Source: Maribacter polysaccharolyticus
Lineage (GTDB): Bacteria; Bacteroidota; Bacteroidia; Flavobacteriales; Flavobacteriaceae
Assembly: GCF_028882255.1 (NCBI RefSeq)
Contig: NZ_JARBUY010000001.1
Coordinates: 1,146,344 to 1,210,343 of the forward strand
Reading direction: 5' to 3'
DNA: 64,000 bases
Of the stretch, positions 12,853-32,700 are shown one piece after another. Position 1 is the stretch's first letter, and every line of letters starts with the position of its first letter. Position numbers and translations under genes: made by a program. The notes under the pieces were generated by a model, which saw only the letters and a program-made list of their open reading frames with translations, made no database searches and was not told the origin of the DNA.

Positions 12853-13209
12853 AAATAATAATTTCCTTGCCAAAGATGCGCTCTGTAAAGTGTATAGATC
12901 TGATTGTTGTTAAACTACGTACTCAATTAAAACACTTACAAGCGGTTAAAATAACGGCAAGAAATATTATAGCCCTTGGAAGGAAGCAACAAGTAAAACC
13001 TAATCCCTACTAAAATGAGTAAAACCTCAAAGCTGTTAAGCTAGTTTGACATAAGAAAAATTATAGTACAAATGTATTGTGTGCAGTTTCCGTATAGCTG
13101 TGCTATTTTATATAATTGTAGATATGATTGCCTTTAGGCTCATATCGTCAACAATTATGTAAAAGGAAACCAATACGCTATACTTAAATAATTGTTCTCC
13201 ATTCGTTAA

Positions 13210-13352
13210 CTATAATTGCATTATGTAAAATATCCCAGAAGCATTTGTTTTCATTAGAATAATTGGAACTTGGGTCATTAAACTATTAAGTGGTTTGCTT
13301 CACAGCGTTTAAAAACATTTGCATCTATAATTAGCCGTTATGTAAAATAGCC
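13210..13352 (+). repeat. Two direct copies of a 26-29 bp word ending TTATGTAAAATA.CC
   Basis: Copies at 13210-13235 and 13324-13352 share CTATAATT and TTATGTAAAATA, with a two-to-three base difference in the middle. A shorter version (ATTATGTAA) is at 13154. In opposite orientation, TTACATAAT occurs twice at 20411 and 20439, so the module between is loosely bracketed. The core is AT-rich, and chance occurrence of the short versions cannot be excluded. Confidence 0.4.
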
Positions 13353-13614
13353 GCTACTAAGCGCTCGATTGTTTTATAAAATCAAATTGCTCTGGCAATT
13401 TATTTTACACGCAATTATCCAACGCTTGCCAACGCCAAAATAAAAGCTAACTTTTTTGCTCTTATTAAAAATCGCGGATTCGATAAAATGTACGTCATAA
13501 AAAATTTTAGACGATTCTCGTAAGCTTGCCACAAGAGCATAAATTTTAAGAAAAATAAAATTCTATACACTTGTTAACTATAGAACTTCAATTAATCTTT
13601 TTTCGTGTTTCATT

Positions 13615-13655
13615 ATCTTTTGTCTTGAAACAAAAGAAACAAAAATTCAAGGCTG
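13615..13655. repeat. Hairpin-forming intergenic element
   Basis: CTTTTGTCTTGAAACAAAAG forms a short stem with a TTGA-containing loop and is followed by AAACAAAAATTCAAGGCTGC. I recall very similar strings recurring in intergenic regions of flavobacterial genomes, but that is memory, not a search. It could act as a terminator or be a REP-like element. Confidence 0.35.
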
Positions 13656-13888
13656 CATATAATTTTGGAAACTATTAACGGCTCATTAGCTATATTTAAG
13701 GAAACATCGGAACTCGTTAAGATTGCTTTGAAATTCATTGATTAATTGAAACTCTTAAGAAACTGAATTACTAAACCCCTAAAATATGCACGCTCATTTC
13801 TCCTATTGTTTTGACCAAAATTTTATGAGGCCAAGGTAAATACCGAGATTCTAATTTACATAATATTTAAAAACTCAACTATTTGTAA

Positions 13889-14029
13889 TTAGTCACCTTT
13901 TTTGTGCTTATGCTTTTTTAATGGTGGGTAATCTTTCTTTTTATCTGGTGAAACTCTTCTTCTTTTGTCCAGTGAACCATCATCTTTTCTCGGTTTAGGA
14001 CCTGGTTTAATTGCTTCAATTGTAATCAT
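13889..14029 (-). CDS. Small Lys/Pro-rich basic protein (46 aa) ending the Ubl operon
   Basis: ATG-initiated: MITIEAIKPGPKPRKDDGSL, then DKRRRVSPDKKKDYPPLKKH and KHKKGD, stop. More than a third of residues are Lys or Arg, with scattered Pro, so it is probably disordered. It starts 12 bases after the DUF6527 stop on the same strand and is likely the fourth gene of the ubiquitin-like operon. Possible roles are an acceptor rich in lysines for the Ubl protein or a nucleic-acid-binding tail; both are guesses. Codon pattern and tight spacing favour a real gene despite its size. Confidence 0.55.
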   Translation of the reverse strand: MITIEAIKPGPKPRKDDGSLDKRRRVSPDKKKDYPPLKKHKHKKGD

Positions 14030-14041
14030 AATATTTGTTTA

Positions 14042-14452
14042 TTAATTTGATAATAGCATTAAAAACCAATCTAAAACTCTTCTAAAAATTGATTTTCTCA
14101 CCTGTTTTGATTCTAAATCATCATAATAGGCTTTTCTTTTTCTTGCTTCTGCTTCACGTCCTGCTATGATTTCCTCTTCACTCCAATCATGTGACCATTC
14201 AATATTTCCATTAGTAATCCAATAATGTGACCTACATGGTAATTGCCAATTACCTATAGAAGGATATAAAGTTGGTTTATTTTTAACTTCTTTAAACGAC
14301 CATTCGGATGGCTCAATTGGAGTCATTATTTTATTTTCACAACCACATGGGCACAAATGACCTGCAATACCAAATTCTTCAGAAACATATAAAATTCCTT
14401 GCTCAAGGACTTTTGGTAAATATTCAACTTTCAGCAATTTAATTTTTTCCAT
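14042..14452 (-). CDS. DUF6527-family protein of a ubiquitin-like conjugation operon
   Basis: 136 residues. The family core is visible: HLCPCGCENKI (clustered Cys, probably metal-binding), PTLYPSIGNWQLPCRSHYWI and TNGNIEWSHDWSEEE. A charged tail and a short hydrophobic end (VLDWFLMLLSN) follow. The start overlaps the end of the E1-like gene by 14 bases, so translation is coupled. DUF6527 proteins recur beside multiubiquitin and ThiF genes. From memory, relatives in so-called Bub operons were described as unusual peptidases acting on the Ubl protein; I could not verify this. The conserved Ser-His of CRSHYW would be the place to look. Confidence 0.75.
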   Translation of the reverse strand: MEKIKLLKVEYLPKVLEQGILYVSEEFGIAGHLCPCGCENKIMTPIEPSEWSFKEVKNKPTLYPSIGNWQLPCRSHYWITNGNIEWSHDWSEEEIIAGREAEARKRKAYYDDLESKQVRKSIFRRVLDWFLMLLSN

Positions 14453-15614
14453 TCTCCCCTACTAAATTTACCCCATCAACATTAAATAACATATGGAAAT
14501 ATGAATTGTCATCCAAATAAAAACCTCTCATTTGTTTATATTTAATAACCGCTAAACAAGCATTTAAGGCATTAAGTTCTGAAATTTGAATATTACTTTT
14601 ATAAACATCATCGGGAATATCACTTAATGGAGCTAGCCTTTTATTAATAGTACTTTGTGCTGATTCGACAGGGAAATATGTAGTTCGAAGTGTGCCACTT
14701 ATTAAGCCAGTATCTTTGTCTAATCCCATACCTAAATCTATAAATGGTATTTTTAGTTTTACTAGTAAATCAAATATTTCACCACGAGCAGCTCCGCTAT
14801 CAACACAAACAAAAGCAAAAGTTACGCCAGTCAAATCTTCTTCTGAATCACAAGTAATATAATTAGAATAAATATTTACATTATCACGGAAATTTTGATA
14901 ACGATTGTTATATACTTCTGTTTTTCTTTTACCTAGTTCTTCTTCATTTAATTTTCCAGGAGAACGGAATGCATTATGAACATGATACCAATCTCCATCA
15001 AATCCTTTGATTTCTTTTACTGGAGTTTTAACTAAAAAATCTAAAAGGTATGAACCAGTCCCACCAAGTCCGATAATCGCAATTGTATCTTCTTCAAGTT
15101 TAGCACTTAACTCTCCTATTCCCGCCCTACTTGTTAACGTATCCCTAAATTTAAACACAGATTTAGTATTTTCATCAGCTACTCTAAAAGTATAAGGGTT
15201 CGCATCAAATTTATCAATTGCTGGTCCAGAAATTATAGTAATATAATTTTCAATTTTTTCGAACCAATCTTTAAATTTTCCACTTGGAGGCTTGTTAGAA
15301 AAAGACCTTTGTACAACCAAATCTTTTGAAGCCAAATGGACTGATGTTGCACCACCACCAAGATTTCTAATTGGTTTTCCGTTTAATTCATGAGGATGAC
15401 TACCACAAAAGAATATTTGATGGTCTCTCATGCCCATTTTATTCTGGCTAATAAAATTTACTATTGAAACTATTGCTCCAATTTGAAGGTTTCCGTTATT
15501 GTCTAGATAAGGGATATCTCTAACAACAAGATGATTGCTATCTATTGCCAATGCATATCCCTTTTTTAATAATCTATCAATATCCTCATTATTCTCTGCT
15601 AAACTTACTATCAT
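14439..15614 (-). CDS. ThiF/E1-like ubiquitin-activating enzyme with N-terminal DUF6791/E2-like region
   Basis: 391 residues. Residues 1-135 match the type of region found in front of ThiF in multiubiquitin operons: YLDNNGNLQIGAIVSIVNFI and then FFCGSHPHELNGKPI, whose Cys70 is the only Cys in this part and a candidate E2-like thioester site. Residues about 165-391 are the E1 adenylation domain: glycine loop IIGLGGTGSYLLDF (182-193), acidic pair in GFDGDWYHVHNAFR (206, 208) with Arg217, GKRKTEV and the FVCVDSG aspartate (272). It should adenylate the C-terminus of the Ubl protein encoded 6 bases upstream. Zinc-binding Cys pairs of MoeB are not visible. Confidence 0.85.
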   Translation of the reverse strand: MIVSLAENNEDIDRLLKKGYALAIDSNHLVVRDIPYLDNNGNLQIGAIVSIVNFISQNKMGMRDHQIFFCGSHPHELNGKPIRNLGGGATSVHLASKDLVVQRSFSNKPPSGKFKDWFEKIENYITIISGPAIDKFDANPYTFRVADENTKSVFKFRDTLTSRAGIGELSAKLEEDTIAIIGLGGTGSYLLDFLVKTPVKEIKGFDGDWYHVHNAFRSPGKLNEEELGKRKTEVYNNRYQNFRDNVNIYSNYITCDSEEDLTGVTFAFVCVDSGAARGEIFDLLVKLKIPFIDLGMGLDKDTGLISGTLRTTYFPVESAQSTINKRLAPLSDIPDDVYKSNIQISELNALNACLAVIKYKQMRGFYLDDNSYFHMLFNVDGVNLVGENGKN

Positions 15615-15620
15615 TTCTAT

Positions 15621-15881
15621 TTAAGATTGTCCCGTATGTTTAACTTTAAAAATCATTCCTTCTTTTACTCTAACTTTTCCACCTGGAGATAAAATTCCAG
15701 TTGGTTTGTTTCCATTTCCTCTTTCGTAAGTAACAGAATAGGTTCTTTCTGGGTGTTGAGGAAAATCTGGAAAAGCAAGCGTAACCACTTCGTCATAAGT
15801 TATTTCATTTTTCTCTTCTTCATGAGGTGTACCATTAACTATAATAGTTACCAATTTTTTTTTGTCTTCTTTCTTAATCAT
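15621..15881 (-). CDS. Ubiquitin-like modifier (multiubiquitin-domain family, single domain)
   Basis: 86 residues with the beta-grasp pattern of the multiubiquitin family: KLVTIIVNGTPHEEEKNEIT, YDEVVTLAFPDFPQHPERTY, SVTYERGNGNKP, then GGKVRVKEGMIFKVKHTGQS. There is one domain only, despite the family's name. The C-terminus ends TGQS and has no Gly-Gly, so the modifier is either trimmed, perhaps by the DUF6527 protein, or linked through another residue. It is first in the operon and divergent from the XRE gene. A consensus promoter sits about 55 bases upstream of the ATG. Confidence 0.88.
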   Translation of the reverse strand: MIKKEDKKKLVTIIVNGTPHEEEKNEITYDEVVTLAFPDFPQHPERTYSVTYERGNGNKPTGILSPGGKVRVKEGMIFKVKHTGQS

Positions 15882-15907
15882 GATAATTAAATTTAAATTA
15901 CTATATT

Positions 15908-15981
15908 TGTCTCACACATAAGATTATGTTGCATCAAAGATACGTTATGTTGACTGTCTTACAAGTGAAACAATGTCTTAC
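15908..15981. promoter_or_regulatory. Iterated operator-like words in the shared intergenic region
   Basis: The 134 bp between the Ubl and XRE genes holds TGTCTCAC at 15908 and TGTCTTAC at 15955 and 15974, plus TTATGTTG at 15924 and 15945. The TGTCTTAC copies are 19 bp apart and the TTATGTTG copies 21 bp apart, close to two helical turns. One copy overlaps the -33 element of the Ubl promoter. That is what a binding array for the neighbouring XRE protein would look like. Confidence 0.5.
15935..15964 (-). promoter_or_regulatory. Bacteroidetes housekeeping promoter for the Ubl operon
   Basis: On the minus strand TTG (15962-15964) is followed by exactly 19 bases and then TATCTTTG (15935-15942), a full match to the Bacteroidetes -33 TTG / -7 TAnnTTTG consensus. 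Transcription should start near 15928, about 47 bases before the Ubl start codon. The -33 side overlaps a TGTCTTAC word. Confidence 0.65.
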
Positions 15982-16015
15982 TTATTAACAACTTTTTAAT
16001 TTTATTAACATTTAG

Positions 16016-16351
16016 ATGAATTCTGAATTAAATACAAGCCTTTTAGCAGGCATGCTTAAAACAAAAAGAGGTAGTACTGGATTAAGAGATACAGCTGCCC
16101 AAATAGGAGATATTAGCTCCGCAACACTTTCAAGAATAGAACAAGGGAAACTTCCTGATGTAGAAACTTTTATCAAAATTTGTAAATGGCTTGAAGTAAC
16201 TACAGAAACTTTTATCATTTCGAACAAAGAACAAAAAGTAACGTCCTCAAAAGACAAAATATTAGCTCATTTACGCGCTGATAGAGAATTAGACCCAGAT
16301 ACGATGAGAATGTTAACTCAAGTAATAGACTTGGCTTATAATAAGAAGTGA
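16016..16351 (+). CDS. XRE-family helix-turn-helix regulator
   Basis: 111 residues with one lambda-repressor-like HTH: TGLRDTAAQIGDISSATLSR, then IEQGKLPDVETFIKICKWLE. A C-terminal helical part follows (DREPDP-like DPDTMRMLTQVIDLAY). It heads an operon with an ImmA-like metallopeptidase and a reverse transcriptase and faces the Ubl operon. XRE plus ImmA/IrrE pairs (for example CapH-CapP of CBASS) are switches in which the peptidase removes the repressor on a damage or infection signal. By analogy this protein may repress both arms through the intergenic repeats. Confidence 0.85.
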   Translation: MNSELNTSLLAGMLKTKRGSTGLRDTAAQIGDISSATLSRIEQGKLPDVETFIKICKWLEVTTETFIISNKEQKVTSSKDKILAHLRADRELDPDTMRMLTQVIDLAYNKK

Positions 16352-16352
16352 T

Positions 16353-16940
16353 TTGGCAAAAAAGAATTATTTGAAAAGAGGTTTTAAGGCAAAAGCAGAA
16401 AGAATTTCAAATAAATTCAGAGCTGAATTAGGTCTAGAGTTTAATCAGCCATTATGTGGGTTTGAACTTGCTAAACATCTTAATATTGAAGTTATGTCTC
16501 CAGAAATTTTGGGTTTAGATAATCAACAACTTGATGTTTTAATGGGTAATAGCAAAGAAAGTTCAGGTTGGTCGGCTTTGACTATGACCAATTATAATGA
16601 CAAAAAAATTATTATTCATAATACAAGAGCAAGTGAAGCCAGACAGCAAAGTGATTTAATGCATGAGTTAGCGCATATAATATGTGAGCATGAAATCGTT
16701 GTTCCAAAAGGAGTGGTCCTTCCAAGTTATATGAGATATTACGATAGAAATCAAGAAGCAGAAGCTGAATATCTTGGTTCAGCTTTACAATTACCTAGAG
16801 AGTGTTTGGTTTGGGCTTTAACTACTGGTAATATGTCTAAAAAAGAGATATCAACTAATTATTCTGCTAGCTTACAAATGGTTAATTATAGAATTAATAC
16901 AACTGGTATTAGAAAACAGATAAAATATATTAGAGCTTAA
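16353..16940 (+). CDS. ImmA/IrrE-family metallopeptidase
   Basis: 195 residues with the zinc-protease motif HELAH at 104-108 (SDLMHELAHIICEHE) and the downstream Glu-rich RNQEAEAEYLGSALQLPREC, the third-ligand helix of the ImmA family. The predicted start is TTG, two bases after the XRE stop; the first ATG in frame is too far in to be the start, so TTG is favoured and translation is probably coupled. It likely cleaves the XRE protein encoded just upstream. ImmA-type DNA-damage responses are known from ICEBs1 and CapP; the trigger here is unknown. Confidence 0.85.
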   Translation: MAKKNYLKRGFKAKAERISNKFRAELGLEFNQPLCGFELAKHLNIEVMSPEILGLDNQQLDVLMGNSKESSGWSALTMTNYNDKKIIIHNTRASEARQQSDLMHELAHIICEHEIVVPKGVVLPSYMRYYDRNQEAEAEYLGSALQLPRECLVWALTTGNMSKKEISTNYSASLQMVNYRINTTGIRKQIKYIRA

Positions 16941-16942
16941 GT

Positions 16943-18172
16943 TTGACACTACTAGAGGAATTATCAAATAAAGATTTCTTATTTGAGGCATGGAACCAAT
17001 TAAAGAAAGAGAATGAAGATTCCCATGGATTATCTGGGCTTACAATAAAAGAGTTTCAAGAAAATCTTACTACTAATATTTTCAATATTAGACGCTTTCT
17101 AAAAAAAGGAAGCTATAATTTTTCCCCGAATAGAGCGGCTGTAATAAAAAAAGAAAATGGGAAGTACAGACCATTACAAATACCAGAAATTCGAGATAGA
17201 GTTGTTCTTAAAGCGTTAGCCATCCTTCTTGAAGAAAATCTCAAAGAATTACTTAAAGACAGCGAAGGCATAAGTTATGCATATCAAAAAGGGAAAGGTG
17301 TAAAGCAAGCCGTACTTCAAATGAAAAGCGTTTTTGACCAAGGAAAGCAAATAATACTTAAAGCTGATATTGTTAACTTTTTTGAAGAAGTTGATAAAGA
17401 TTCACTTTTAAAGAATAAAATATTTCCGAACCTTAAAGATAAAACAATAAATTTTTTAATAATAAACGCTCTTAATCAAAAGCTTGGAGGATTAAAACGC
17501 CTTGGCAAAAAGCATAAAGAATTGTTTAAAAATGCAGGAAAAGGTATTCCTCAAGGTAATCCACTTTCTCCATTGCTCTCAAATGTTTATTTGGCGGACT
17601 TTGATAGTTACATGAAAAATGAAAACCATCCAATGGTGAGATATGCAGATGACTTCATTGTTTTGTTTGATAATCTCGAGAATGCAGAAGATGGATATAA
17701 TCATATTTCTGAATACTTAACTAATGAACTTGGATTAGAAATTCATGAGTTAGATGAGAAAGATATGGGAAAAACCACTATTGTAAATCCGTTTAATCAA
17801 ACTTTATCCTTTCTATCTATACGTTTTGATGGCAAAAAATTATTACCGCCACGAAATTCTATTCCATATCTAAAAAGCAAAATTGCTAAAGAAGTTAAGA
17901 GAGGTGAGCTTAATGAAGACACTTTTAATTCAGTTTATACAATTATTACAAATTGGATTGCTTTATACTCGTATTTGGAAATAGACATATATTTTGATGC
18001 GATTGATAATTATTTTGTAACAGTATTGAAGAAAAAATTTGGTTATGAAAAGATTAAAACCACTAACTGTAAGAAATTAAAAGCTAGATATTTTAAGGAA
18101 AGAAGTAAAAAAAATAAAGCTCCTTTTTGGAAAAAAATATTACCTTCTTTCTCAAACTCAAAAAGTATATAA
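16943..18172 (+). CDS. Stand-alone reverse transcriptase of group-II-like type
   Basis: 409 residues, TTG start two bases after the ImmA stop. Fingers and palm motifs are complete: YRPLQIPEIRDRVVLKAL, GISYAYQKGKGVKQAV, ILKADIVNFFEEVDKDSL (first catalytic Asp about 142), GKGIPQGNPLSPLLSN and VRYADDFIVLF (YADD at 234-237), then FLSIRFDG. A thumb-like tail of about 110 residues follows, ending in a basic stretch. There is no maturase, HNH or other added domain, and no group II intron domain V was seen around it. It is not an intron ORF but the third gene of an operon, as in defence-type or unknown-group RTs. Confidence 0.88.
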   Translation: MTLLEELSNKDFLFEAWNQLKKENEDSHGLSGLTIKEFQENLTTNIFNIRRFLKKGSYNFSPNRAAVIKKENGKYRPLQIPEIRDRVVLKALAILLEENLKELLKDSEGISYAYQKGKGVKQAVLQMKSVFDQGKQIILKADIVNFFEEVDKDSLLKNKIFPNLKDKTINFLIINALNQKLGGLKRLGKKHKELFKNAGKGIPQGNPLSPLLSNVYLADFDSYMKNENHPMVRYADDFIVLFDNLENAEDGYNHISEYLTNELGLEIHELDEKDMGKTTIVNPFNQTLSFLSIRFDGKKLLPPRNSIPYLKSKIAKEVKRGELNEDTFNSVYTIITNWIALYSYLEIDIYFDAIDNYFVTVLKKKFGYEKIKTTNCKKLKARYFKERSKKNKAPFWKKILPSFSNSKSI

Positions 18173-18179
18173 AGTAACC

Positions 18180-18639
18180 ATTCCACACACATTATGCTTC
18201 CCTCCTACGTCGTCGCATAAAAAGTGTTCCATTAACATTGTAGAAGAAACTTTTAGAATAATTTTTTTAAAGAAACTGTAGTAACAACTATCGCTTTTAA
18301 CCAAAGCACAAGTTGCATAACGCGGTATATTATAATACATTTTGTATTATTGGTTTAGCCAGTGGCTGAAGCAATAATCAAGAAAGCTGGTGCGTTGTCA
18401 TAATTTGAACAAGGTTTAATCCACCTGTAGCCTTACCCAATAATATGAGCAAGCCAAACATTTTTTTCTTCTTTTCCGACAAAACAACTTTAAGCCTATT
18501 AATTCCCGTTTTGGAGATTTCTGTTAGCATATTAAGCAATATATATTTAAATATTAACCTAAAATTACATTTAAACAGTGTTTATTTATAAAGTATTTAA
18601 CAAATATTATCATTTCACACACATTACTCTTCCCTCTTA
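18180..18639. repeat. Direct repeat pair (28 bp, 24 matches) flanking an XRE pseudogene
   Basis: ATTCCACACACATTATGCTT at 18180 recurs as ATTTCACACACATTACTCTT at 18612, both followed by CCCTC-T-TA. They begin a few bases after the reverse transcriptase stop and enclose the decayed regulator gene below. The pair could be a trace of a duplication or of a cassette junction. A short RNA partner of the RT in this interval is possible, but I see no strong structure. Confidence 0.45.
18355..18530 (-). pseudogene. Decayed XRE-type regulator gene
   Basis: From ATG at 18530 the frame reads MLTEISKTGINRLKVVLSEK and then K-rich sequence, matching the start of small Bacteroidetes XRE regulators (INRLKVVLAEK type). 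It then shifts: the next frame gives NVWLAHIIG, stop, GYRWIKPCSNYDNAPAFLII, ASATG, stop, aligning with the HTH and the following NTxQPxLETLxxIA segment of such proteins. A frameshift in an A-run and a nonsense codon make it non-functional. Confidence 0.6.
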
Positions 18640-18694
18640 TCAGCAGTCAGTTAATAAGGATTCTATTATAATTTAACCAAGAGTGCCGTTCGTT

Positions 18695-19900
18695 TTAATT
18701 TTTTGAATTTTCATCTTCAAGCTTTATGCTAAAGCCTCCTACAAACCTTATCGAGAAAAGGAACTGAGTGTCTGTAAGCCCTTCGACATCATTTCTACCT
18801 GCTCCACCTATCATTGGCATTGAAAACTCCGCGATAATATTGTTTAACCTAAAACCAAATGAAGGTTCAATACCACTAAAACTTGTGTCAGTCGTTCCCA
18901 AAAATTGATTTCTTATTAAATTGTTTGTTGGAGATGAGATATCACCAGTCAATTCTCTAAAAGTATAATTTAAACCCAGCCTTACACTGTATTTTCTCCT
19001 ATTTTTAACATCACGAATTTTATTATTTGGCAAAAATTCGTGAAACAGTCCAAACCTTAAATTCACCGCACCTGCATATCTGCTTTTGTCTACCTCCTCA
19101 TCGGCAAAGTTCCAAAGAACATTCGATGCATTAATTCTAAAATTTGCACCACTTATCCATTTTGTAATCCATCCACCCTTTACCCACAATAATTCTGGGT
19201 TAAAGTAAACATCAGAATTTATGAAAACTGATTGTTTAGAACTTACCGGGTTTAAAACATAATTGCCGAATAATCTTGTATTAGACACATTGCCATCGTC
19301 TAAGATAGCCTCAAGCGAATCAACACTTGATGCAACATTTATATAAGCTTCCATGTCTAAACTCTCAAAAAACCTTTTGAAATTCTTATCTATGGTCATA
19401 TTCTTCGTTGCATTACTTATTGTAATTTTTTCTTTTTCAAGCTCTTTTTTCTCTTCTTCTAGTTCTTTTTGTCTATCTACTAAATCAGAAGAGCTATTTT
19501 CTATTTTAATTTTTTTGCCTATTTTTTCGATTTTGACCTTTAAACGTTTTAGCTCTCTTTCTAAATTATTTTTCTTTTTTAACTTTAGAAATAGTTCCTT
19601 ATCCTGATAAAACAATTCCTTTTGTTCTTCACTCTTGTTTAAAAAGTATCTTTCAAAAATGACTCCCAAACCAGCCGATCCCTGAACTTCATCAGTTGCC
19701 TCGCTAAGATTTGCCTGTAAATTTGCTGTACCAACAAAATCAATATAGAATTGGTTAGGTCCGTTTGTTGGAATGGATTTTTTGTCAATCTCTGTTATAT
19801 TTTCATTCAAATAACCATTTGAAGAATCTTGAAAATATGCATTGGATTGCTGAAGAGAAATAAAACTCATCAAAAACATAAGTGTGATTTTACTTTTCAT
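18695..19900 (-). CDS. Predicted outer-membrane beta-barrel protein with a coiled-coil insert
   Basis: 401 residues. A Sec signal peptide (MKSKITLMFLMSFISLQQSN, cleavage after NA) is followed by FYIDFVGTANLQANL, an acidic/basic coiled coil at about 95-160 (ELEEEKKELEKEKI, LERELKRLKVKIEKIGKKIK), and a C-terminal half of alternating strands (YSVRLGLNYTFRELTG, NNIIAEFSMPMIGG, FLFSIRFVGGFSIKLE) typical of small barrels. I do not recognise the family. It lies downstream of the RT region on the opposite strand and may be unrelated to the Ubl/RT module. Confidence 0.6.
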   Translation of the reverse strand: MKSKITLMFLMSFISLQQSNAYFQDSSNGYLNENITEIDKKSIPTNGPNQFYIDFVGTANLQANLSEATDEVQGSAGLGVIFERYFLNKSEEQKELFYQDKELFLKLKKKNNLERELKRLKVKIEKIGKKIKIENSSSDLVDRQKELEEEKKELEKEKITISNATKNMTIDKNFKRFFESLDMEAYINVASSVDSLEAILDDGNVSNTRLFGNYVLNPVSSKQSVFINSDVYFNPELLWVKGGWITKWISGANFRINASNVLWNFADEEVDKSRYAGAVNLRFGLFHEFLPNNKIRDVKNRRKYSVRLGLNYTFRELTGDISSPTNNLIRNQFLGTTDTSFSGIEPSFGFRLNNIIAEFSMPMIGGAGRNDVEGLTDTQFLFSIRFVGGFSIKLEDENSKN

Positions 19901-21341: not shown

Positions 21342-21629
21342 ATGAAAAAATCACTGTATCCAACCCTTCTGTTTTTGCTTATTACGAATTCCATTTTTGC
21401 CCAAATCGGTGGTATCGAAGATTCGGTCAATGATGTTTCCGATACGATAAGAACCATTTTTCCCATTATTCTGGGTGTCATCTTCCTGATAGGCTTCCTG
21501 TTTAATGCAGGTCATTTCTTTGGCGAAAACGCAGACCTTAAAAAAGGAATAACCCGTGTATTGGTCTTTGTACTAATCGCAGGAGCGGTCGTTGGTATCT
21601 TCACCTATCTCATAGGCATTGTAGTATAA
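21342..21629 (+). CDS. VirB2-like/DUF4134-like conjugal transfer protein
   Basis: 95 residues: signal peptide (TLLFLLITNSIFA), a short periplasmic part (QIGGIEDSVNDVSDTIRTIF) and two hydrophobic spans (PIILGVIFLIGFLFNAGHFF and VLVFVLIAGAVVGIFTYLIG). Size and topology match VirB2-type pilin subunits and TraE of Bacteroides elements. It is the first gene of a tightly packed plus-strand operon followed by the VirB3-like and TraG genes. Confidence 0.75.
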   Translation: MKKSLYPTLLFLLITNSIFAQIGGIEDSVNDVSDTIRTIFPIILGVIFLIGFLFNAGHFFGENADLKKGITRVLVFVLIAGAVVGIFTYLIGIVV

Positions 21630-21634
21630 TCCTT

Positions 21635-21919
21635 ATGAAGAAATTCGAAGTTTATAAGAACATTAGAAAGCGGGCAATGATATTTGGGCTTCCGGTATCG
21701 TTGTTTTCCCTCATGATGGTTTCAATTGTGGCATCTCTTTTGGTCATCATCTTTTCATTTGGTCCGGGCATCATATTAGGCGCCTTCATATTGAATAGTT
21801 GTCTCTATATCGTTCTTATCCGATTGGCCAAAAATCCACAACCTATCCAGCTTACATATCCCTTTCCCAAAATTATCACCAACAAAAAAGTAACGTTATT
21901 CGACTATGAGGAAGATTAA
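21635..21919 (+). CDS. TraF-like/DUF4133 (VirB3-like) transfer protein
   Basis: 94 residues with two adjacent membrane spans (SLFSLMMVSIVASLLVIIFS and GPGIILGAFILNSCLYIVLI) near the N-terminus and a short cytoplasmic tail, as in VirB3 and DUF4133 proteins. It starts 5 bases after the pilin-like gene and its end overlaps the TraG ATPase start by 14 bases. It anchors the ATPase to the inner-membrane part of the channel. Confidence 0.78.
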   Translation: MKKFEVYKNIRKRAMIFGLPVSLFSLMMVSIVASLLVIIFSFGPGIILGAFILNSCLYIVLIRLAKNPQPIQLTYPFPKIITNKKVTLFDYEED

Positions 21920-24308
21920 TCTGGCATCGAACCATCCTATCGCGGACATTCGCAAAAACATATTCTTTGCCAACAATGGTAATGTGGTGCTTTGCTACAA
22001 AGTGGATTTGCCCGAAATCCATTCCCTTTCAGAAAAGGATTTTGAGGATCTCCATGGTGCCTGGTTTCAGGCCATAAAATCCCTTCCTGTCGGTACCGTC
22101 GTTCACAAACAGGATATCTATCTAAAAAAACCATATACCTCTAAACAACTTCCCTCCTGTACTTTCTTGGCAAAAGCAACCTCCGAATATTTCAAAGGGA
22201 GGGAATATATGGAACATCAATGTTACCTGTTCTTTGTCCTGACCAAAAACAAGGCACTTAACAATCCTAAATATGTCAATCCGTTTAAAATAGTCCCTAA
22301 TTCCTTTCCCAAGGAACTGGATGATACCCTTAACCGATTCCTTGGTGCTGTAAACGATTCTGTTTCTTTTATAAACAATAGCCGAAAAATTTTAATTACC
22401 TCTCTGGTGCCCGATGAAATACTAGGGCTTACGCATACATATTTCAATGGTTTCAATGATGGTTTTGATACCGATATTCTTCTAGATAAAGATCAAATCA
22501 ATATCGGTGAAAACCATTTTGATGTTCTGGCCGTCAATAGTGAATCTTGTTTTGGCAAAAACGTACTCAGCAGTAAGACCAATGAAGGTTTTACTTCTGA
22601 CGATTTTGTTTTCCATCAAGGATTTATCGACGGTCTCGGTCTGACCTTGGACGAAAACCATATCGTCAACCAAATCCTATATCTGGATAATAAACAGAAA
22701 TGGCGTAAACTACTGGACAGGAAAATTGAAGAACTGAAGAAGAGCTCCAACTTCGGTTCCCAGAACAAGGTAATACTGGGAAAAACCCAGCACATACTTG
22801 ATAAGATTAATGCTGATGATACCTCGCGGGTCATACGTGGTCAGCTCAATATCCTCTATTGGCATAAAGAGCCTAAAAAATTAGAGGGTATCACTTCCCG
22901 AATCAAGGCGGAGTTCAAGGAACTGGATATTATTCCTTACTACCCTAGGGGGCAAGAATGTTCAAATTATTTTTTAAATAGTTTTTGTGCCTTCTCCTCT
23001 CATTTTTCCAACGAGGATTTGTATGTCACAGACTTGAAACATGCCCTATGCCTGCTTATCAATAACACCACTTATAAATCAGACGAAAAGGGCATCATTT
23101 TTAATGATAGGGTATACAATGTACCTGTTTTAAAAGATGTTTGGGATGAGCGAAAGAGACGTATCAAGGCTAGGAACTTTGCCATTTTCGCACCCACCGG
23201 CGAAGGAAAGTCCTTTCTGGCCAACAACATCCTACGTCAATATTTCGAGAGCGGTGTACGTATGATCATTATCGACCTTGGGGGGTCCTACTCCAAATTC
23301 GCCAAACTTTATCCCAAAAAATACACCATACTCCGATATGAAAGCGGCCAGAATTTGGGCATCAACCCATTCTTCATAAGCCATAAAAATGACCTAACCC
23401 CAGAACGGTTAGAAGACTTATCGGTTTTCCTTTTAGAGCTCTTCGCTTCCGACCTGGACGTAACCAAGGCACAATCAGTCTCTATCAAGAAAATCCTACG
23501 CTACTATTACAAACAATCCGCAATTGGTCATTCGCTCAGTAGCTTTTATTTTTTCATAGAGGAACATAAGAAAACACTGCTCAAAACCCTTAAAATCCAT
23601 CCCGATTACTTCAACATCACCAACTTTCTGCACATTATGTCGGAGTATGTCGGAGATGGTCTATATAGCTTTCTTTTTGACGTTAGCGAAGACCAGACCT
23701 ATAAAATCGAGGACAAGCGACTTATCGTCTTTGAACTCGATGAAGTAAAGGACAACAAGGAAATCCTTTCCGTGATGTTGAAGCTTATAAAAACGGCCAT
23801 TCAACGGACGATATGGAAGAACCGATCCGAAAAGGGCATTATCCTATTCGACGAGTTTGCCAAGCAACTGAAGTTCGACAACGTACTGGAGAGTGTGGAA
23901 TTTTATTATCAGGCCATCCGGAAACAAAACGGTGCCATCGGCATCATTCTACAATCCATCAATCAGTTACCAAACAATTCGACTTCGGCAAGCATTCTTG
24001 AAAATACACAGGTCATCTACAGCCTAAACAACGAAAAGGGATATGACGAAATCGTGAAACGGTTGAATCTTTCCTCCCACGATCTGAATCAATTAAAATC
24101 CATTAAGAACAACTTGACCGGAACACGGAAGTACACCGAAATGTTCATTAAAATAGGTAAAGAGAGTAACATTTTCCGATTGGAAGTGCCGTCAGAAGTA
24201 TATGCGGCCTACTTGACCGACGGTAAAGATAACGACGCCATAATGGCACTTTATAAAAAGACGGGCTCCATGGAAGGGGCCATCAAAGAATTTATCAAGC
24301 AGTTGTAG
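21906..24308 (+). CDS. traG: TraG-family conjugation ATPase (VirB4-like)
   Basis: 800 residues, normal for the family. Walker A is FAPTGEGKSFLANN (about 429-436), Walker B is GIILFDEFAKQL (about 644-650), followed by RKQNGAIGIILQSINQLPNN, the arginine-finger/sensor part of VirB4 proteins. It powers assembly of the type IV secretion channel at the inner membrane. It is VirB4-like, not the VirD4 coupling protein, which I do not find in the window. Confidence 0.92.
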   Translation: MRKINLASNHPIADIRKNIFFANNGNVVLCYKVDLPEIHSLSEKDFEDLHGAWFQAIKSLPVGTVVHKQDIYLKKPYTSKQLPSCTFLAKATSEYFKGREYMEHQCYLFFVLTKNKALNNPKYVNPFKIVPNSFPKELDDTLNRFLGAVNDSVSFINNSRKILITSLVPDEILGLTHTYFNGFNDGFDTDILLDKDQINIGENHFDVLAVNSESCFGKNVLSSKTNEGFTSDDFVFHQGFIDGLGLTLDENHIVNQILYLDNKQKWRKLLDRKIEELKKSSNFGSQNKVILGKTQHILDKINADDTSRVIRGQLNILYWHKEPKKLEGITSRIKAEFKELDIIPYYPRGQECSNYFLNSFCAFSSHFSNEDLYVTDLKHALCLLINNTTYKSDEKGIIFNDRVYNVPVLKDVWDERKRRIKARNFAIFAPTGEGKSFLANNILRQYFESGVRMIIIDLGGSYSKFAKLYPKKYTILRYESGQNLGINPFFISHKNDLTPERLEDLSVFLLELFASDLDVTKAQSVSIKKILRYYYKQSAIGHSLSSFYFFIEEHKKTLLKTLKIHPDYFNITNFLHIMSEYVGDGLYSFLFDVSEDQTYKIEDKRLIVFELDEVKDNKEILSVMLKLIKTAIQRTIWKNRSEKGIILFDEFAKQLKFDNVLESVEFYYQAIRKQNGAIGIILQSINQLPNNSTSASILENTQVIYSLNNEKGYDEIVKRLNLSSHDLNQLKSIKNNLTGTRKYTEMFIKIGKESNIFRLEVPSEVYAAYLTDGKDNDAIMALYKKTGSMEGAIKEFIKQL

Positions 24309-24343
24309 ACTGCATTTAATATTAACAACCAAAAATCAAGAAA

Positions 24344-24925
24344 ATGAAACACATCATTAAAAAAATAATGCTATCCGTATTAGTTGCCATTGTAGTGAAT
24401 GGCCATGCTATGGCCCAAGGGATGCCGGTATATGATAATACCAATTTCATCAGTTTGACCAAATCCCTTATTGAAACTGCAAAACAGACCTCGCAACTTC
24501 TAAAGACTGTAGATTTTCTAAAACAACAAAAAGAGAACATTGACAAGGTGAACAATGTGATCAAACAATTGAAAGCGATAAGGGAACTCGCCAAGAACAA
24601 CCAACGGCTATACGAAGTTGTTCAAAATGATTTAAGGCAAATCCTGAACTCCCCTTTTATAAAACCTGATGAAGTTACCCGTATATCGGATTCTTTCGAT
24701 GCCATTCTTCAAAACTCTATAGAGGGTATGGAATATATCGACCAAATATTGTCCAGTGATAATTTGAAGATGACAGATGCGGAGCGTGCCGAAGTCCTTA
24801 AAGAACAGGAATTACAATCCAAGGAAATGGTAGCGGAAATTGAGGCAAAGACCAGACGCTACCGAGAGATAATTGCATTTCGAGAGATGCAACACACAAT
24901 CAATAATAGAGAAACCAATTACTAA
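24344..24925 (+). CDS. VirB5-like (TraI/DUF4141-type) transfer protein
   Basis: 193 residues: signal peptide (MLSVLVAIVVNGHAMA, cleavage at MAQG) and an all-helical periplasmic body (LTKSLIETAKQTSQLLKTVD, LNSPFIKPDEVTRISDSFDA, KMTDAERAEVLKEQE). The helix pattern and position between the VirB4 and TraJ genes match the TraI/DUF4141 slot of Bacteroidetes conjugation operons, a minor pilus component. Sequence resemblance is weaker than for the neighbours. Confidence 0.65.
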   Translation: MKHIIKKIMLSVLVAIVVNGHAMAQGMPVYDNTNFISLTKSLIETAKQTSQLLKTVDFLKQQKENIDKVNNVIKQLKAIRELAKNNQRLYEVVQNDLRQILNSPFIKPDEVTRISDSFDAILQNSIEGMEYIDQILSSDNLKMTDAERAEVLKEQELQSKEMVAEIEAKTRRYREIIAFREMQHTINNRETNY

Positions 24926-24930
24926 CAACC

Positions 24931-25764
24931 ATGATTTTTTTGGGTATGGGACTGGAATATGTGGACACCGTTTTTCAAACGATAAAAAACAGTGATTTCT
25001 CGCAGTACACCATTGCCGGGATGAAAACGCTGGCAGTATTGTTCTTTTTGATCAATATCCTAAAAAAATATAATGAGGGTGTTGCCAATAACGAGGGTTA
25101 TACTTGGGGGCTTACGCCATCCGAGCTTGCCAAGAACTTTGCAATCGTACTATTGGTTATTTTCTCCACACAGGTTTTGGGTGTTTTCGATGCCTTGCTG
25201 GTGGCCATCGAGAGTCAATACCGGGACACGGCACCCGCACTCCTCCCATTGCAGATGATGGATATCGACATCGAACAGGATGTAGGTGCCCTGGAAGCCA
25301 CAAAAAAAGCGATGGCGATGCTCTATGAGGCCCTCGTCACCCCCTTGTATGGCCTGAAGATACTCTCCTTTATCATTGGGGTTTTCCTGTGGTTATTGGA
25401 TCTGTTTATCTACCCCTTGTTTCTAGCGGAACGCTTTTTCCTTTTGGGCATTATGCAGGCCTTTTTTCCGTTGGTCATCAGCTTGGCCGTCTTTGAAAGG
25501 TTCAGATCATTGGCCTATACATTTTTCAAACTCTATGCAGGGGTCTATATGTTGGTACCGGCTTTTTTTCTGGTCAATGTATTCGTGAACAATCTCTATA
25601 CGGAAATCAACACCAATTTTTGGAGTGACCTTTTTGGAACGGATTGGGGGAGTAATTTATTCGCTCCGCTTTTACAATTAGGATCCATCGGATTTATCGT
25701 ACTGTTGAAATTCAAACTGTACAAACGGGCAACCTCATTCACTTTTAAACTCTTTACAGGCTGA
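24931..25764 (+). CDS. traJ: TraJ-like polytopic membrane protein (VirB6-like)
   Basis: 277 residues with about six hydrophobic spans (MKTLAVLFFLINILKKY, NFAIVLLVIFSTQVLGVFDA, ILSFIIGVFLWLLDLFIYPL, MQAFFPLVISLAVFERF, LYAGVYMLVPAFFLVNVFVN, SIGFIVLLKFKLY). TraJ/VirB6 proteins form the inner-membrane pore of the channel. It begins 5 bases after the VirB5-like gene and is followed after 34 bases by TraK. Confidence 0.8.
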   Translation: MIFLGMGLEYVDTVFQTIKNSDFSQYTIAGMKTLAVLFFLINILKKYNEGVANNEGYTWGLTPSELAKNFAIVLLVIFSTQVLGVFDALLVAIESQYRDTAPALLPLQMMDIDIEQDVGALEATKKAMAMLYEALVTPLYGLKILSFIIGVFLWLLDLFIYPLFLAERFFLLGIMQAFFPLVISLAVFERFRSLAYTFFKLYAGVYMLVPAFFLVNVFVNNLYTEINTNFWSDLFGTDWGSNLFAPLLQLGSIGFIVLLKFKLYKRATSFTFKLFTG

Positions 25765-25798
25765 ATGCCTAAAGCACATTAAGTAATAATATCGCTAC

Positions 25799-26422
25799 AT
25801 GAATATGAAAACACCCTATAAAAATATTTACATCATCTTAAAACAAAATCGCTTTATTGTATTGACGGTCATTATCGGAGCTGTCCTGACATGTATCGTT
25901 TCTGTTCTGATGGTCATAAAACTATATAAAGAAACGACCAACAATGCCTTTGTAGTCAATTCAGACGGTAGTGTAATTCCCTTGAAATTAGTGTCCCAAC
26001 AAGAAAATTTAAAAGTTGAGGCATTAGCCAATCTAGAACTTTTCCACACGTATTTCTATAACATTGATGCCAGCAATTATGAAAAGAATTTGGAAAAGGC
26101 CCTATGGTTGGGTAATAGTTCTGTAGATGCTTTGTACCGCCAGAAAAAAGCTGATGGTGTTTATAACCGCTTACTGCAATATTCCCTGCTCCAGAAAGTA
26201 TTGCGTATAGAATCAAAAGTAGATATACAAAATGAACCCTACAGATTTGAAACGAAAACCATTTTTGAAATCAACCGGGGTACAGTTACTGACACTTATG
26301 AATTAACTACTACGGGAAAGTTGATTCAAATCGACAGAAACTTTCCAAAGAATACCCATGGATTGTTGATTACCGATTTTTTTGAAAACACTTTAAAGAA
26401 AATCAATGATGAAAGCCCATAA
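25799..26422 (+). CDS. traK: TraK-like protein (VirB8-like)
   Basis: 207 residues: short cytoplasmic N-terminus, one span (FIVLTVIIGAVLTCIVSVLM), then a periplasmic NTF2-like domain (ANLELFHTYFYNIDASNYEK, ALWLGNSSVDALYRQKKADG) and KLIQIDRNFPKNTHGLLITD. This is the TraK architecture and VirB8 role, bridging inner-membrane and outer-membrane parts of the channel. Confidence 0.85.
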   Translation: MNMKTPYKNIYIILKQNRFIVLTVIIGAVLTCIVSVLMVIKLYKETTNNAFVVNSDGSVIPLKLVSQQENLKVEALANLELFHTYFYNIDASNYEKNLEKALWLGNSSVDALYRQKKADGVYNRLLQYSLLQKVLRIESKVDIQNEPYRFETKTIFEINRGTVTDTYELTTTGKLIQIDRNFPKNTHGLLITDFFENTLKKINDESP

Positions 26423-26444
26423 TGGGCAACTAAAAAAAAACAGT

Positions 26445-27383
26445 ATGAAAATAGAAAAGAACAAATTAGTTTTTTCCATGGTATTGGCCTGTATTCTACT
26501 TTTTCTAGTAGGCTATGCAATGCTGGTATGGGGAGAGGATAAGGAACCTACTACAGACAATAATCAGATTCCCGTACCGGAACTAGAGGATAACCTAAAG
26601 GAATACGACTCTAAATTAGATGCCCTTAATGACCTTAAAGAGGTTAAGCAAACCAATGCCCCAAGTATCTATGATGAACGACTGTTGGACTCCACAGGGG
26701 TCTACGATGCCCAATTATTGGACAAGGAAAAGATGAGGGTGGTCGACAGCATCTACCAGCATGGTCAAATTCGATATTCAGGCCAATCGTATGAAAATAT
26801 CAACCCGAAGGACAACACTACCAAATCCATAAAGAAAATGGCAAAAGACACCATTAAAATTGATGATAAGGAAACGGAAGTCGCTTCCAAGGAACTGGCC
26901 TTGGAGCATCAACTCTTTTTCGCTTCCCATCCCATAACAAATGAAGCTTTGAATGCGAAAAATACTGATGAATCCATCTATGTGCGTGTAGATGGAACGC
27001 AGACCCTGAAAGCTAATTATCGCTTACAGATGCGATTAACAAACGATGCTATCCTATATGGAAAACGAATACCCAAAAACACACTAATCTATGGCTTTAT
27101 CAGTTTTAAGCCCAATCGCACAATCATAGACATTGAGCATATAAATCATCAACCAGTCAAACTAAAGGCTTATGATTACCAAGACGGTACGGAAGGAATT
27201 TATGTAGAGAATAGTTTCCAGGAAGAAGCAACAAGAGAAGTGCTGGATGATGTCATCAGCGATTTCAATATTCCTAGTGTTCCACAAGTGGGCGGACTTA
27301 CACAAGTATTTCGGCATTCTAACCGAAGAGTAAAAGTAACCATACTGAACAATTATAAACTTATTCTAAAACCAAAATTATGA
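26445..27383 (+). CDS. traM: TraM-like protein (VirB10-like)
   Basis: Starting at the ATG at 26445 (MKIEKNKLVFSMVLACILLF) places the membrane span at the N-terminus, as expected; an upstream ATG would overlap traK and add a polar leader. The C-terminal domain (ILYGKRIPKNTLIYGFISFK, IDIEHINHQPVKLKAYDYQD, GIYVENSFQEEATREV) is the conserved TraM domain. The protein spans the periplasm and senses ATPase energy, like VirB10. Its stop overlaps the traN start. Confidence 0.85.
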   Translation: MKIEKNKLVFSMVLACILLFLVGYAMLVWGEDKEPTTDNNQIPVPELEDNLKEYDSKLDALNDLKEVKQTNAPSIYDERLLDSTGVYDAQLLDKEKMRVVDSIYQHGQIRYSGQSYENINPKDNTTKSIKKMAKDTIKIDDKETEVASKELALEHQLFFASHPITNEALNAKNTDESIYVRVDGTQTLKANYRLQMRLTNDAILYGKRIPKNTLIYGFISFKPNRTIIDIEHINHQPVKLKAYDYQDGTEGIYVENSFQEEATREVLDDVISDFNIPSVPQVGGLTQVFRHSNRRVKVTILNNYKLILKPKL

Positions 27384-29708: not shown

Positions 29709-32700
29709 CTAAACTTCCGTTTTATATACAAAAACATTTTCGCGAATTAAATAAGCTTCAGTAGAACCCGAATCAATCATCAAACCTAAAATATGTAGAT
29801 ACGCATTGACTAAATCCTGCCTATTTTTAATGATACTTATATTATTAAAAAATAGCTTTTTAACCAAAGTTTTACCATCTTTCCCCATTAAGTCAGCTAT
29901 ATTGCCAGGGTGCTCATCAATCAATTCGTTTAAAATCAAAAGGCCTTCTGGTAGAAACACTTTTTCTCCAAATGTTGAAAAAACGGTAATAACAGAGGAA
30001 AGTTTTCTTGTACCAAAATAAGCTACCATATTAAGGTATTGTTCCTTGTAACTAAAAAACCCTTTCCAATCTTCTAGGGACTTCAAAAACCTATTATCTA
30101 ATAGTAATTTATCGCTAAAATAATAACTGTCGCTCTCCTTTAGTTTATTAAATAAATACTCCCACAACTGCCAGAATCTTGTACCATATTCTTGTAATTC
30201 TTCTTCGGTATTGTCACGTACAATATCATACATTATAGTAATGCAAAAGTCTAATGTACTAGCTACGAACTTGAACAAATCTTGAATATTTTCATCTCTT
30301 TCATTAAATTCCTGTAGGAATGGCAAAACTAAAATATCTACAAATTTTTGTCCATAATCTACTTCACTACTATAAAGAAAGAGTTGCCCGAGAAATAATT
30401 GCATATCTGTCTGTATGGTGTAATCAAAACTTTGGTTACTTCTTCTCCAAGTGTCTCCTTCAACGGTAGTATGTTGACCAACAAATTCGCCTATCACTTT
30501 TATTACATAATCAACTTCTGTTGGATTACAATTCTTCGTGGACATCATTAGCATTGCTCTAACGAGAAAATGCTTTTCGTATAATAAGTAATCAATAGTC
30601 TTCGAATCAATCTCAGTAGGCGCATCCATAGATGTTCTAATGAAATATTTAAAACTCTTTTCATATGCAACTAATTCTTCTTTTGTTGCTCTATAGTAAG
30701 GACTTGGGTTTTCTTTCTCAAATTTTGCAAAGGATACCACCATCTTGGTTAAGTCAGTAGCAGTATCTGGGCAGTTCTTGATAAATTTATCTCTAAAATA
30801 CATTAGAAATTGTCTTAAGTCATAATCGTCTAATGGACATAAGACCAGTCTTCCAAGAAGTATCCGACAATCAGTTTTCACTTTATCTGTAGCAGCATAC
30901 TTCGGTAGTAAATGTATAGCGTGAAGAATTGTCTTTTTCTCCAATAAACTATATTTCATACTTAGATTATGGTCATTTTTGTATTTGTCCGTTATCAGCG
31001 CATCAACGGCTTTAAAAATTGTATAGAAACACCAAGAAACCTGTTGCTCGTTTAATTGAGCAGAAAATGAATCAAGTCCAATCTTAGAGAGTGATACTGG
31101 CATATCAAACATACCGTGCTGAAAATCTACTGCTGTGTAGTAATTGTAGATTTCTAGCCATTGCTCAAAAGTTATTTCTACCTCATTTTCTATCGCTTTA
31201 CGCAGCATATTACTATAAGAGGCATCGAAGTGATTATCCTTAAAACCCTCTTCAATTGCAGTAATTGTTTCCGAAATTTCTTCAGAATAAGATGGCACCA
31301 ACTCCACCGTACCTGCTTCTTCATTTACTTTACCCGGTTTAAGTTTACGAACATCCATTTCTGTAACCGTTTTAATCCACATATGGTCATCCGCAAAGTC
31401 TTTGTGAAATTTATCAAAAATCTTAAAAAGCTCTTCATTAAGCTTGCCATAGTTAATTTGATAATGAAACATAAAAGCCCTCAATCCTTGATGATATTTT
31501 CTGCGGTGAGGCAATGCATTGGAATCCATCCTTTCTTTTTGTGCATATGGTATTTTATTGTCTTCTGGTGCCATACTATGATACTCACTTATAGACCTCT
31601 GTAAATCCCAATCATAGAATTGTCTTAAACCAAAAATTGGTAGTATAGCATCTGTAAATGCTTTTGGGTTTGACATAAAAACACTCGCAAAAACAGAGGT
31701 TAAAGCAACATTATTGGAAAATTGAAGTATATATTTACAATGTTCTTCTAGTAGCTTTTTAGCTAAATCATTATCGACTGATGCCAACTGAAGTAAGTAA
31801 CGTTCTAAAGACATCAATAACGATTCAATAAGGGTATGTACTCTAGTTGCTAAACCTCTATATGCAATCCATAAATCTAAATCACCATATTGTATTCTTT
31901 CCTTTCCGTCTTGGAATTGCAATGTCAACTTTTCCAGAGGATGCTCTTTTGCATAATCAGACTGCATAAAGAAGTCAACACTATAGTTAATAAAGTTTGT
32001 TACAAACGAAATCGCTTTAATTGGGTGGGTTGAAAACAAACCAGCAGCAAATGTTTTATAAATTCCAGAAGGGTAATAATCAAACTTTGAATCTTCTATT
32101 CCCCAAGATTCTTCTTTTTCGGGTCTTGGTTTAGGTAAAAAACTTGATATGCTTCTGCGTCCATCGATTTTCACTTCTTCGACTTCTTCCTTTGGGTGTA
32201 CTTTCCAATTTTTATCTGTTAAAGAAATAAGCAATTCTGGAAATTCTTTTATAAGGCTTTGGTTTCGTATACCACCAAGTGCTATTTTAATAGCTATCTC
32301 ATAGAATTGTTGTACTCTCCAAGCCACGCCGTCTTTAGAGTTTGCTCTATTAAGAAAATCTTGAAGTTCAGGTTTAGCAAAAGGTGCTAGACCAAAGAAT
32401 AGGTATACCAACTCTTGTATCGTATATTTTTCACGAGAAAGCTTATTTAACCAGAAATTATCTTCAGACTCAATCTGCTGAATAAACTGGGTAACAATAC
32501 TTTTACAAGCCTCAATTTCCTCATAGGATGAATTATCAGAATCGAGTAAAAATCTTAGCTCCCAATCTAATAATAACATAAAAATTGACTCACGTAAATT
32601 TGACAATGCCGTTATATTTTCTGCTATAAACACAAGTAAATCTCTCCAAACGCTACCAATAGGAAATAGTATAGATTTATTCTTTTCAGAACCAAAACCA

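Follow-up and report, generated by a model that had tools for sequence, protein, structure and literature searches.

A seven-gene unit of Maribacter polysaccharolyticus carries a reverse transcriptase in the regulator arm of a Bub-like operon

Introduction

Bacterial operons that encode ubiquitin-like proteins (Ubls) of the Multi_ubiq family are already in the literature. Row 6e of Iyer et al. 2006 describes the type of Ubl operon treated below, and the same paper states that a "domain X" replaces JAB in some multiubiquitin operons (PMC1779556). Kopfmann et al. 2016 report that 70% of PF14452 genes adjoin COG2856 loci (PMC4963859), and 219 of 544 Bub operons were found beside CapW or CapH+CapP and 59 of 544 beside CapK+CapS (PMC13373217). 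The last paper also cites CapP as a protease that is activated by single-stranded DNA (ssDNA) and cleaves CapH, and has CapH+CapP respond to DNA damage. Here we analyze a locus of Maribacter polysaccharolyticus in which an operon of this kind diverges from an operon encoding an XRE repressor, an ImmA-like protease and a reverse transcriptase (RT). It occupies positions 13889 to 18172 of a 64,000-nucleotide stretch of contig NZ_JARBUY010000001.1 (positions 1,146,344 to 1,210,343), which we call the window.

Our reading, to which we assign a probability of roughly 0.55, is that the locus is a mobile, inducible defence-type module composed of a repressor–protease switch, a Bub-like tagging operon and a recruited RT.

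Results

Seven genes in two divergent arms

A reading of the window from its sequence alone (hereafter the sequence-only reading) had proposed two tight divergent arms of seven genes about one control region. All seven open reading frames (ORFs) lay where that reading had placed them and Pfam assigned a family to every one except the smallest protein. The leftward arm (minus strand) begins with the Ubl gene (15621–15881), which encodes one Multi_ubiq domain (PF14452, 2.8e-14) with the C-terminus ...HTGQS. There follow an E1-like adenylating enzyme having an N-terminal DUF6791 domain joined to ThiF (14439–15614; PF20590, 8.6e-44, and PF00899, 6.6e-13), a DUF6527 protein with the pattern HxCxCGC ... 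CxSH (14042–14452; PF20137, 87.5 bits, E 5.5e-25) and finally a lysine-rich protein of 46 residues (13889–14029), for which Pfam, NCBIfam and PHROGs gave no match at the limits used. The rightward arm (plus strand) encodes an XRE/Cro-type repressor that is CapH-like by layout (16016–16351; PF01381 HTH_3, 4.8e-6), an ImmA/IrrE-like M78 metallopeptidase that is CapP-like and has a HELAH motif (16353–16940; PF06114, 51.7 bits, 9.4e-14) and a group II-like RT with the motif YADD (16943–18172; PF00078 RVT_1, 4.8e-23).

The arms share a control region of 134 bp (15882–16015), and the coordinates and gaps agree with the tight packing proposed. Gaps of 1 nt (XRE to ImmA) and 2 nt (ImmA to RT) separate the rightward genes. 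In the leftward arm there is a gap of 6 nt between Ubl and E1, an overlap of 14 nt between E1 and DUF6527, and a gap of 12 nt before the small protein gene. This spacing suggests translational coupling within each arm.

The complete unit is conserved in a second genus

The sequence-only reading had proposed that genomes be searched for the same genes in the same divergent order. Such a search succeeded once, in the sampled genome G478, which belongs to a different genus of the same family; there the complete seven-gene unit is present in the same order within different flanking DNA. Amino acid identities between the two copies are 95% for Ubl, 92% for E1, 87% for the DUF6527 protein, 96% for the small protein, 88% for XRE, 79% for ImmA and 88% for the RT, and the TTG start codons of ImmA and RT are identical in both. 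As the same seven genes, order and TTG starts recur, the unit goes beyond chance.

Purifying selection was seen in each of the seven genes, the pairwise ratio of non-synonymous to synonymous divergence (dN/dS) being below 0.1. The dS values were higher for XRE (2.0) and ImmA (1.4) than for the other genes (0.5–1.3), a difference to which we attach no meaning, dS there being near saturation. Even the 46-residue ORF gave a dN of 0.018 and a dS of 1.26, with 16 of its 19 nucleotide differences at third positions. DNA similarity between the two copies spans about 13312 to 18369, and outside these limits, across the 18 kb compared, only repeat-type matches were found. Because similarity ends at the flanks, the unit has been moved or kept as a block. 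Its neighbours in G478 are genes for an S24-type repressor, a patatin phospholipase and a SMODS/DncV-like nucleotidyltransferase, which together are a cyclic-oligonucleotide-based antiphage signalling system (CBASS). The seven genes are a real, transferable unit.

ImmA-like genes lie upstream of many Ubl operons

The partnership of the switch genes with the Ubl operon was examined in 41 Ubl/E1 relatives. These comprised the G478 locus (L008) together with L135–L153, which were all the matches outside the Maribacter genome itself in the sampled Bacteroidota genomes (14 of 395 and 7 of 397 genomes, the Maribacter genome being counted in both), plus 17 plasmid records chosen from 114 found and four viral contigs. 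The set is not random, and two genomes (G583 and G016) gave two loci each; a further locus, L158, was excluded because it is only a fragment. ImmA-like genes were called by an HExxH motif in a frame of 110–480 residues, and hence by motif rather than by family score. In 21 of the 41 loci such a gene was found no more than 4 kb upstream, and in 19 of these it was divergent. Three loci with less than 1 kb upstream of E1 (L145, L146 and L155) were scored as misses in this tally and excluded from the control. Of the 38 loci put into the control, 37 had 2 kb or more on each side, and among those 37 an ImmA-like gene was found upstream in 24 and downstream in one.

Some of these neighbours are larger proteins and a few are two or more genes distant. 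Homologues of the XRE and ImmA proteins of the window, divergent to Ubl–E1–DUF6527, were found in L118 (a Sulfitobacter plasmid) and L142 (Bacteroidota). Alternative neighbours of Ubl loci were a WYL regulator (L116, L122 and L165) and a UvrD-type helicase gene directly upstream (L161, L162 and L167). Many Ubl operons have a regulator pair of this kind beside them, and the arrangement has been described before.

Kopfmann et al. read this pairing as a toxin–antitoxin system (PMC4963859), and XRE–ImmA could likewise stabilize the cassette rather than switch the Ubl operon. However, CapH+CapP has the same layout beside immune operons and is cited as a repressor with an ssDNA-activated protease (PMC13373217), and 19 of the 21 ImmA-like genes diverge from their Ubl operon. 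We consider a toxin–antitoxin pair quite unlikely.

The control region between the arms is well conserved, with 123 of 135 aligned columns identical in the window and G478 (91%), as compared with 124 of 409 RT third codon positions that differ. It contains two opposed TAnnTTTG boxes, at 15902 (+) and 15935 (−), which we take to be promoter elements of the Bacteroidota −7 type. Four TGTYTYAC half-sites are also present (15908+, 15955+, 15965− and 15974+) of nine in the whole window, a motif that was picked post hoc and whose window-wide count equals the chance expectation.

The tagging arm lacks a Gly-Gly end and an invariant E1 cysteine

The Ubl exceeds the Multi_ubiq cut-off (PF14452, 53.5 bits against 24.5) and its Protein Data Bank (PDB) match was 9cd2, a multi-ubiquitin domain protein (E 1.7e-5). 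All 24 Multi_ubiq relatives for which the C-terminus was printed (L008, L116, L120–L122 and L135–L153) end in serine, for example TDKS, TGQS or TNRS, and a Gly-Gly end was found neither in these 24 nor in the window. The Ubl of the window, where the Ubl and E1 genes do not overlap, is also serine-ended.

The E1 matched NCBIfam model NF004803 (PRK06153.1-2) at 751 bits, above the cut-off of 419. Alignment of 23 E1 proteins gave GGTG, Y189, D206, D208, R217, K231 and D272 as invariant in all 23, a set that includes the adenylation residues (GGTG, D206, D208, R217 and K231). No cysteine was invariant across the 23. The position that follows Pro74 (the "PC" position) is Cys in 16, His in the window and in five of six close relatives, all five encoded on alphaproteobacterial plasmids, and Tyr in G478. 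As an invariant E1 cysteine was absent and the Ubl is without Gly-Gly, the sequences suggest a tagging chemistry unlike a simple Gly-Gly thioester cascade. The Bub paper is said to report unusual intermediates.

The sequence-only reading had assigned E1 an E2-like N-terminus, and this was not established. Pfam places DUF6791 there and the predicted structure, although it shows a helix, strands and a helix in this domain, is of low confidence (mean predicted local distance difference test score (pLDDT) 68). With the same low-confidence model as query, the top Foldseek match of E1 was Citrobacter BubCD, which we take to be a fusion of E1 to a JAB deubiquitinase (DUB). Pfam found no JAB domain in the Maribacter E1, DUF6791 standing in its place, and neither the ORF list nor Pfam showed a separate E2 gene within this operon. 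DUF6791 is probably the domain X of Iyer et al. In the DUF6527 protein, residues H32, C34, C36, C38, C73 and H76 are invariant in all 23 aligned sequences and the protein is predicted to bind metal.

The nearest E1 relatives found outside the family (53–57% identity) are encoded on alphaproteobacterial plasmids (L115–L119, L122 and L160) of Rhizobium, Neorhizobium, Ensifer, Sagittula and Sulfitobacter. A DUF2188 gene precedes Ubl in L117, in L118 and in the more distant L163 (37%). In viral contigs a single-sequence E1 query gave no match, and an alignment query gave four full-length relatives and one fragment.

The RT belongs to a small Bacteroidota clade

The catalytic aspartates of the RT are intact (YADD, residues 234–237) and its predicted structure has a mean pLDDT of 86.7, with low confidence only from residue 369. 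Over about 370–400 residues the fold gave template modelling (TM) scores of 0.71 against the G2L4 RT and 0.66 against the GsI-IIC group II RT, and G2L4 was also the top PDB sequence match (2.6e-27). The score against the TIGR04416 maturase model (202.4 bits) was below the cut-off of 300. Its highest score was to a generic RT model, UG17 gave 143 bits, and the NCBIfam models of defence-associated RTs (DRTs) all scored below their cut-offs (Drt2 78.4 of 390, Drt3a 62.6 of 200 and Drt4 28.9 of 450). No group II intron RNA was found by Rfam, either at gathering score in the window or at E up to 5 in 13000–19500. We rejected the protein of a mobile group II intron as an identity for this RT, given the lack of a detected intron RNA, the maturase score below cut-off and the position 2 nt behind ImmA in two genera. 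Sequence and model point to a group II-like, non-intron RT of unassigned class, and no RNA that might serve as its template was found.

The resemblance to G2L4 raises another explanation, that the RT is a DNA repair polymerase which, like G2L4, would act in microhomology-mediated end joining, and which damage would induce together with a Ubl stress pathway, making the locus a damage-response system rather than an antiphage one. The nearest folds and the top PDB match favour this, as does the response of CapH+CapP to DNA damage (PMC13373217). However, the YADD active site is not the YIDD that is the G2L4 hallmark according to PMC12337344, and we rejected G2L4 itself as the identity on this ground. 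Moreover, the RT falls in a clade of its own among the RTs compared, a set that held no known G2L4, and some relatives lie near phage-defence genes. A repair polymerase is therefore unlikely in our view.

Relatives of the RT are sparse. In overlapping genome samples we found them in 5 of 296 genomes of the phylum at E 1e-30, only the Maribacter genome and G211 having an RT that falls in the clade by tree; in 3 of 299 genomes of the family (the Maribacter genome, G478 and G401); and, at E 1e-60, in 2 of 295 genomes of the class (the Maribacter genome and G896) and 1 of 296 of the order (the Maribacter genome). The gene is single-copy in its own genome. No plasmid match was found at E 1e-30; in viral contigs a single-sequence query gave none and an alignment query gave one distant relative. 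A collection of one genome per species (84,980 species) contained at least 80 RT loci, and among the matches listed none of the 80, many of them on short contigs, gave a tblastn match at 1e-3 to the Ubl, E1, DUF6527, XRE or ImmA genes.

In a maximum-likelihood tree of 88 RTs, again among the matches listed, the RT of the window fell in an eight-member clade made up only of Bacteroidota sequences (support 100/99). The six members other than those of the window and G478 stand alone. Three of these solo genes have defence-type neighbours: that of G211 (L010, 8276–9721) lies between ZorA2/ZorB2/ZorE2-type genes (Zorya type II) and a type I restriction gene, that of Pedobacter (L013) is near a Shedu SduA gene and that of Mucilaginibacter (L015) is near an NsnA-like gene.

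The sequence-only reading had inferred from layout that the two arms are joined under one switch, and had stated that the pairing would be a chance event within a cargo island if the RT were rarely beside the Ubl operon or were found freely with other neighbours. The analysis supports a single switch region and a single conserved unit, seen again in G478. A general RT–Ubl system is not borne out, since the RT was found in only one of the 41 relatives (G478, on the stretch examined). Rarity and free occurrence with other neighbours are largely what we found for the RT but not for XRE–ImmA, an ImmA-like HExxH gene being upstream in 21 of the 41. The RT could be a hitch-hiker: after a single arrival behind ImmA, in one Flavobacteriaceae-type lineage, it would only share the transcript, and the Ubl module would work without it, as would those of the other relatives. 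Its rarity favours this, as do a clade that is otherwise solo, half of those members lacking a recognized defence neighbour, and the presence of the whole unit in just two of the genomes searched. However, the dN/dS of the RT frame (about 0.08) shows purifying selection, which might concern the RT alone, and in both genera the frame is kept 2 nt after ImmA and begins with the same TTG. We regard hitch-hiking as a possible explanation, short of an even chance. The hitch-hiking, repair polymerase and toxin–antitoxin explanations are compatible with one another.

Surroundings of the unit

Among the genes to the right of the unit in the window are presumed conjugation genes; two that were scanned gave no Pfam match. 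An Avs4-like STAND protein of 1684 residues (29709–34763; PADLOC 421 bits, Pfam nSTAND), which adds to the defence-type cargo of the region, is encoded 11.5 kb from the RT. Near it, also to the right of the unit, are a HipA-like protein and a tyrosine integrase beside a tRNA-Pro gene. Empty-site comparison with two genomes of the same genus aligned the right flank at tRNA-Pro in both and did not find a left end of the island. In one genome of the genus (G542), DNA related to window positions 21406–26546 lies about 12 kb or less from the tRNA-Pro gene.

A degenerate intergenic repeat of about 150–190 bp occurs in the window at 18178–18369 and 18611–18700, in G478 (L008), in G134 and, in part, in G542. 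One copy lies elsewhere in the Maribacter genome (L130, C11:378891–379049); the loci concerned also include L132, L133 and L134. The repeat often adjoins variable genes, and in G478 it flanks the unit on both sides; one possible role is that of a boundary or recombination element in the swapping of cassettes. Non-coding DNA to the left of the unit (13199–13830) matches L008 at 70% (reverse complement of 1940–2634) at the far end of the CBASS genes, which gives a cargo–repeat–cargo pattern in G478.

The conserved non-coding stretch just 3′ of the RT (18178–18369) was considered as an RT-specific non-coding RNA and rejected. It is not RT-specific, because the Maribacter genome, in which the RT is single-copy, has a copy elsewhere, and G134 and G542 have the repeat without an RT match. 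Its folding is also unremarkable; the 200 nt after the RT gave a z value of −1.3, and 21 of 200 shuffles folded equally well.

Discussion

The module we favour would work as follows. At rest XRE would repress the two divergent promoters that lie in the 134-bp region. When the cell is infected or its DNA damaged, ssDNA would activate the CapP-like ImmA protease, which, by homology with CapH+CapP, would inactivate XRE. The left arm would then produce a minimal Bub-like tagging system (row 6e of Iyer et al. 2006), in which E1 would adenylate the Ubl C-terminus and Ubl would be conjugated to targets; the DUF6527 metal protein would probably serve as a target or as a transfer factor. From the right arm would come more XRE and ImmA plus, in this lineage only, the RT. 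This enzyme would have been recruited from the stand-alone RTs of a Bacteroidota clade and would answer the same signal as a second effector.

This reading is supported by the position of the G478 unit beside CBASS, the dN/dS values below 0.1 and the 91% identity of the control region. The upstream bias of ImmA-like genes, the homologous XRE and ImmA pairs in L118 and L142 and the intact RT aspartates also support it, as do the CapW or CapH+CapP neighbours of 219 of 544 Bub operons and the cleavage of CapH by ssDNA-activated CapP (PMC13373217) and the location of three of the six solo clade RTs, the G478 unit and the window RT near defence-type genes. Several points weigh against it. The RT accompanies the Ubl operon in one of 41 relatives, and since the window and G478 share the unit at 79–96% amino acid identity, this may represent one acquisition rather than repeated selection. 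The defence neighbours of the solo RTs are raw counts, and a PADLOC scan of 11 genes around the other three solo loci (L009, L014 and L170) gave no match. ImmA matched the PADLOC capP model weakly (32.7 bits). Finally, PMC13373217 states that protection against phage is still to be shown for Bub operons.

A further arrangement, which we consider highly improbable, would put the RT first: its product, cDNA or ssDNA made from phage or damage RNA, would activate the ssDNA-sensing ImmA and reverse transcription would license tagging. If true, a relay from RNA to ssDNA to protease to ubiquitin-like tag would be contained in one 5-kb unit. Should one switch truly co-induce the RT and the Ubl operon, as in the module we favour, the locus would be a natural case of reverse transcription paired with ubiquitin-like tagging. 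Otherwise the locus still offers a compact Bub-like system (Ubl, E1 and metal protein) linked to a switch, and it draws attention to an RT clade of Bacteroidota without assigned function, half of whose solo members found here are near defence-type genes.

The sequence-only reading was not aware of a described system that combines protein modification with an RT under one switch. The regulator–Ubl half of this claim does not hold, that pairing being already in print (PMC13373217 and PMC4963859). In the open PubMed Central literature, subscription papers being outside the search, none of the papers listed described an RT attached to the pairing. The term "reverse transcriptase" does not occur in PMC13373217 or PMC1779556, and its single mention in PMC4963859 concerns another chromosomal locus. 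Addition of an RT to the switch arm looks new but rare.

Among described systems, the DRT/UG RTs and BilABCD resemble this locus in having an RT or a Ubl system, partly near defence genes. BilABCD systems have separate E2 and DUB genes, whereas the Maribacter operon has neither, and the top score of its RT was to a generic RT model, with UG17 at 143 bits and Drt2 at 78 against a cut-off of 390. The group II-like RTs, G2L4 included, share the fold (TM 0.66–0.71), the thumb helices and intact catalytic aspartates, but the Maribacter RT differs in its YADD, its separate Bacteroidota clade, its sub-cut-off maturase score and the absence of a detected intron RNA. The multiubiquitin/Bub operons are alike in their Multi_ubiq Ubl, a ThiF E1 with an N-terminal domain, a mobile distribution, adjoining damage-type regulators and a small metal-binding protein, the DUF6527 protein being, we infer, protein Y of Iyer et al. 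The present operon has a single Ubl domain and neither a separate E2 gene nor a JAB domain was found, whereas it gains the 46-residue gene and, in the regulator arm, the RT. CapH+CapP is alike in that a small XRE gene, with an M78 protease gene after it, diverges from an immune-type operon. Here the capP score is weak and the regulator operon runs on into an RT.

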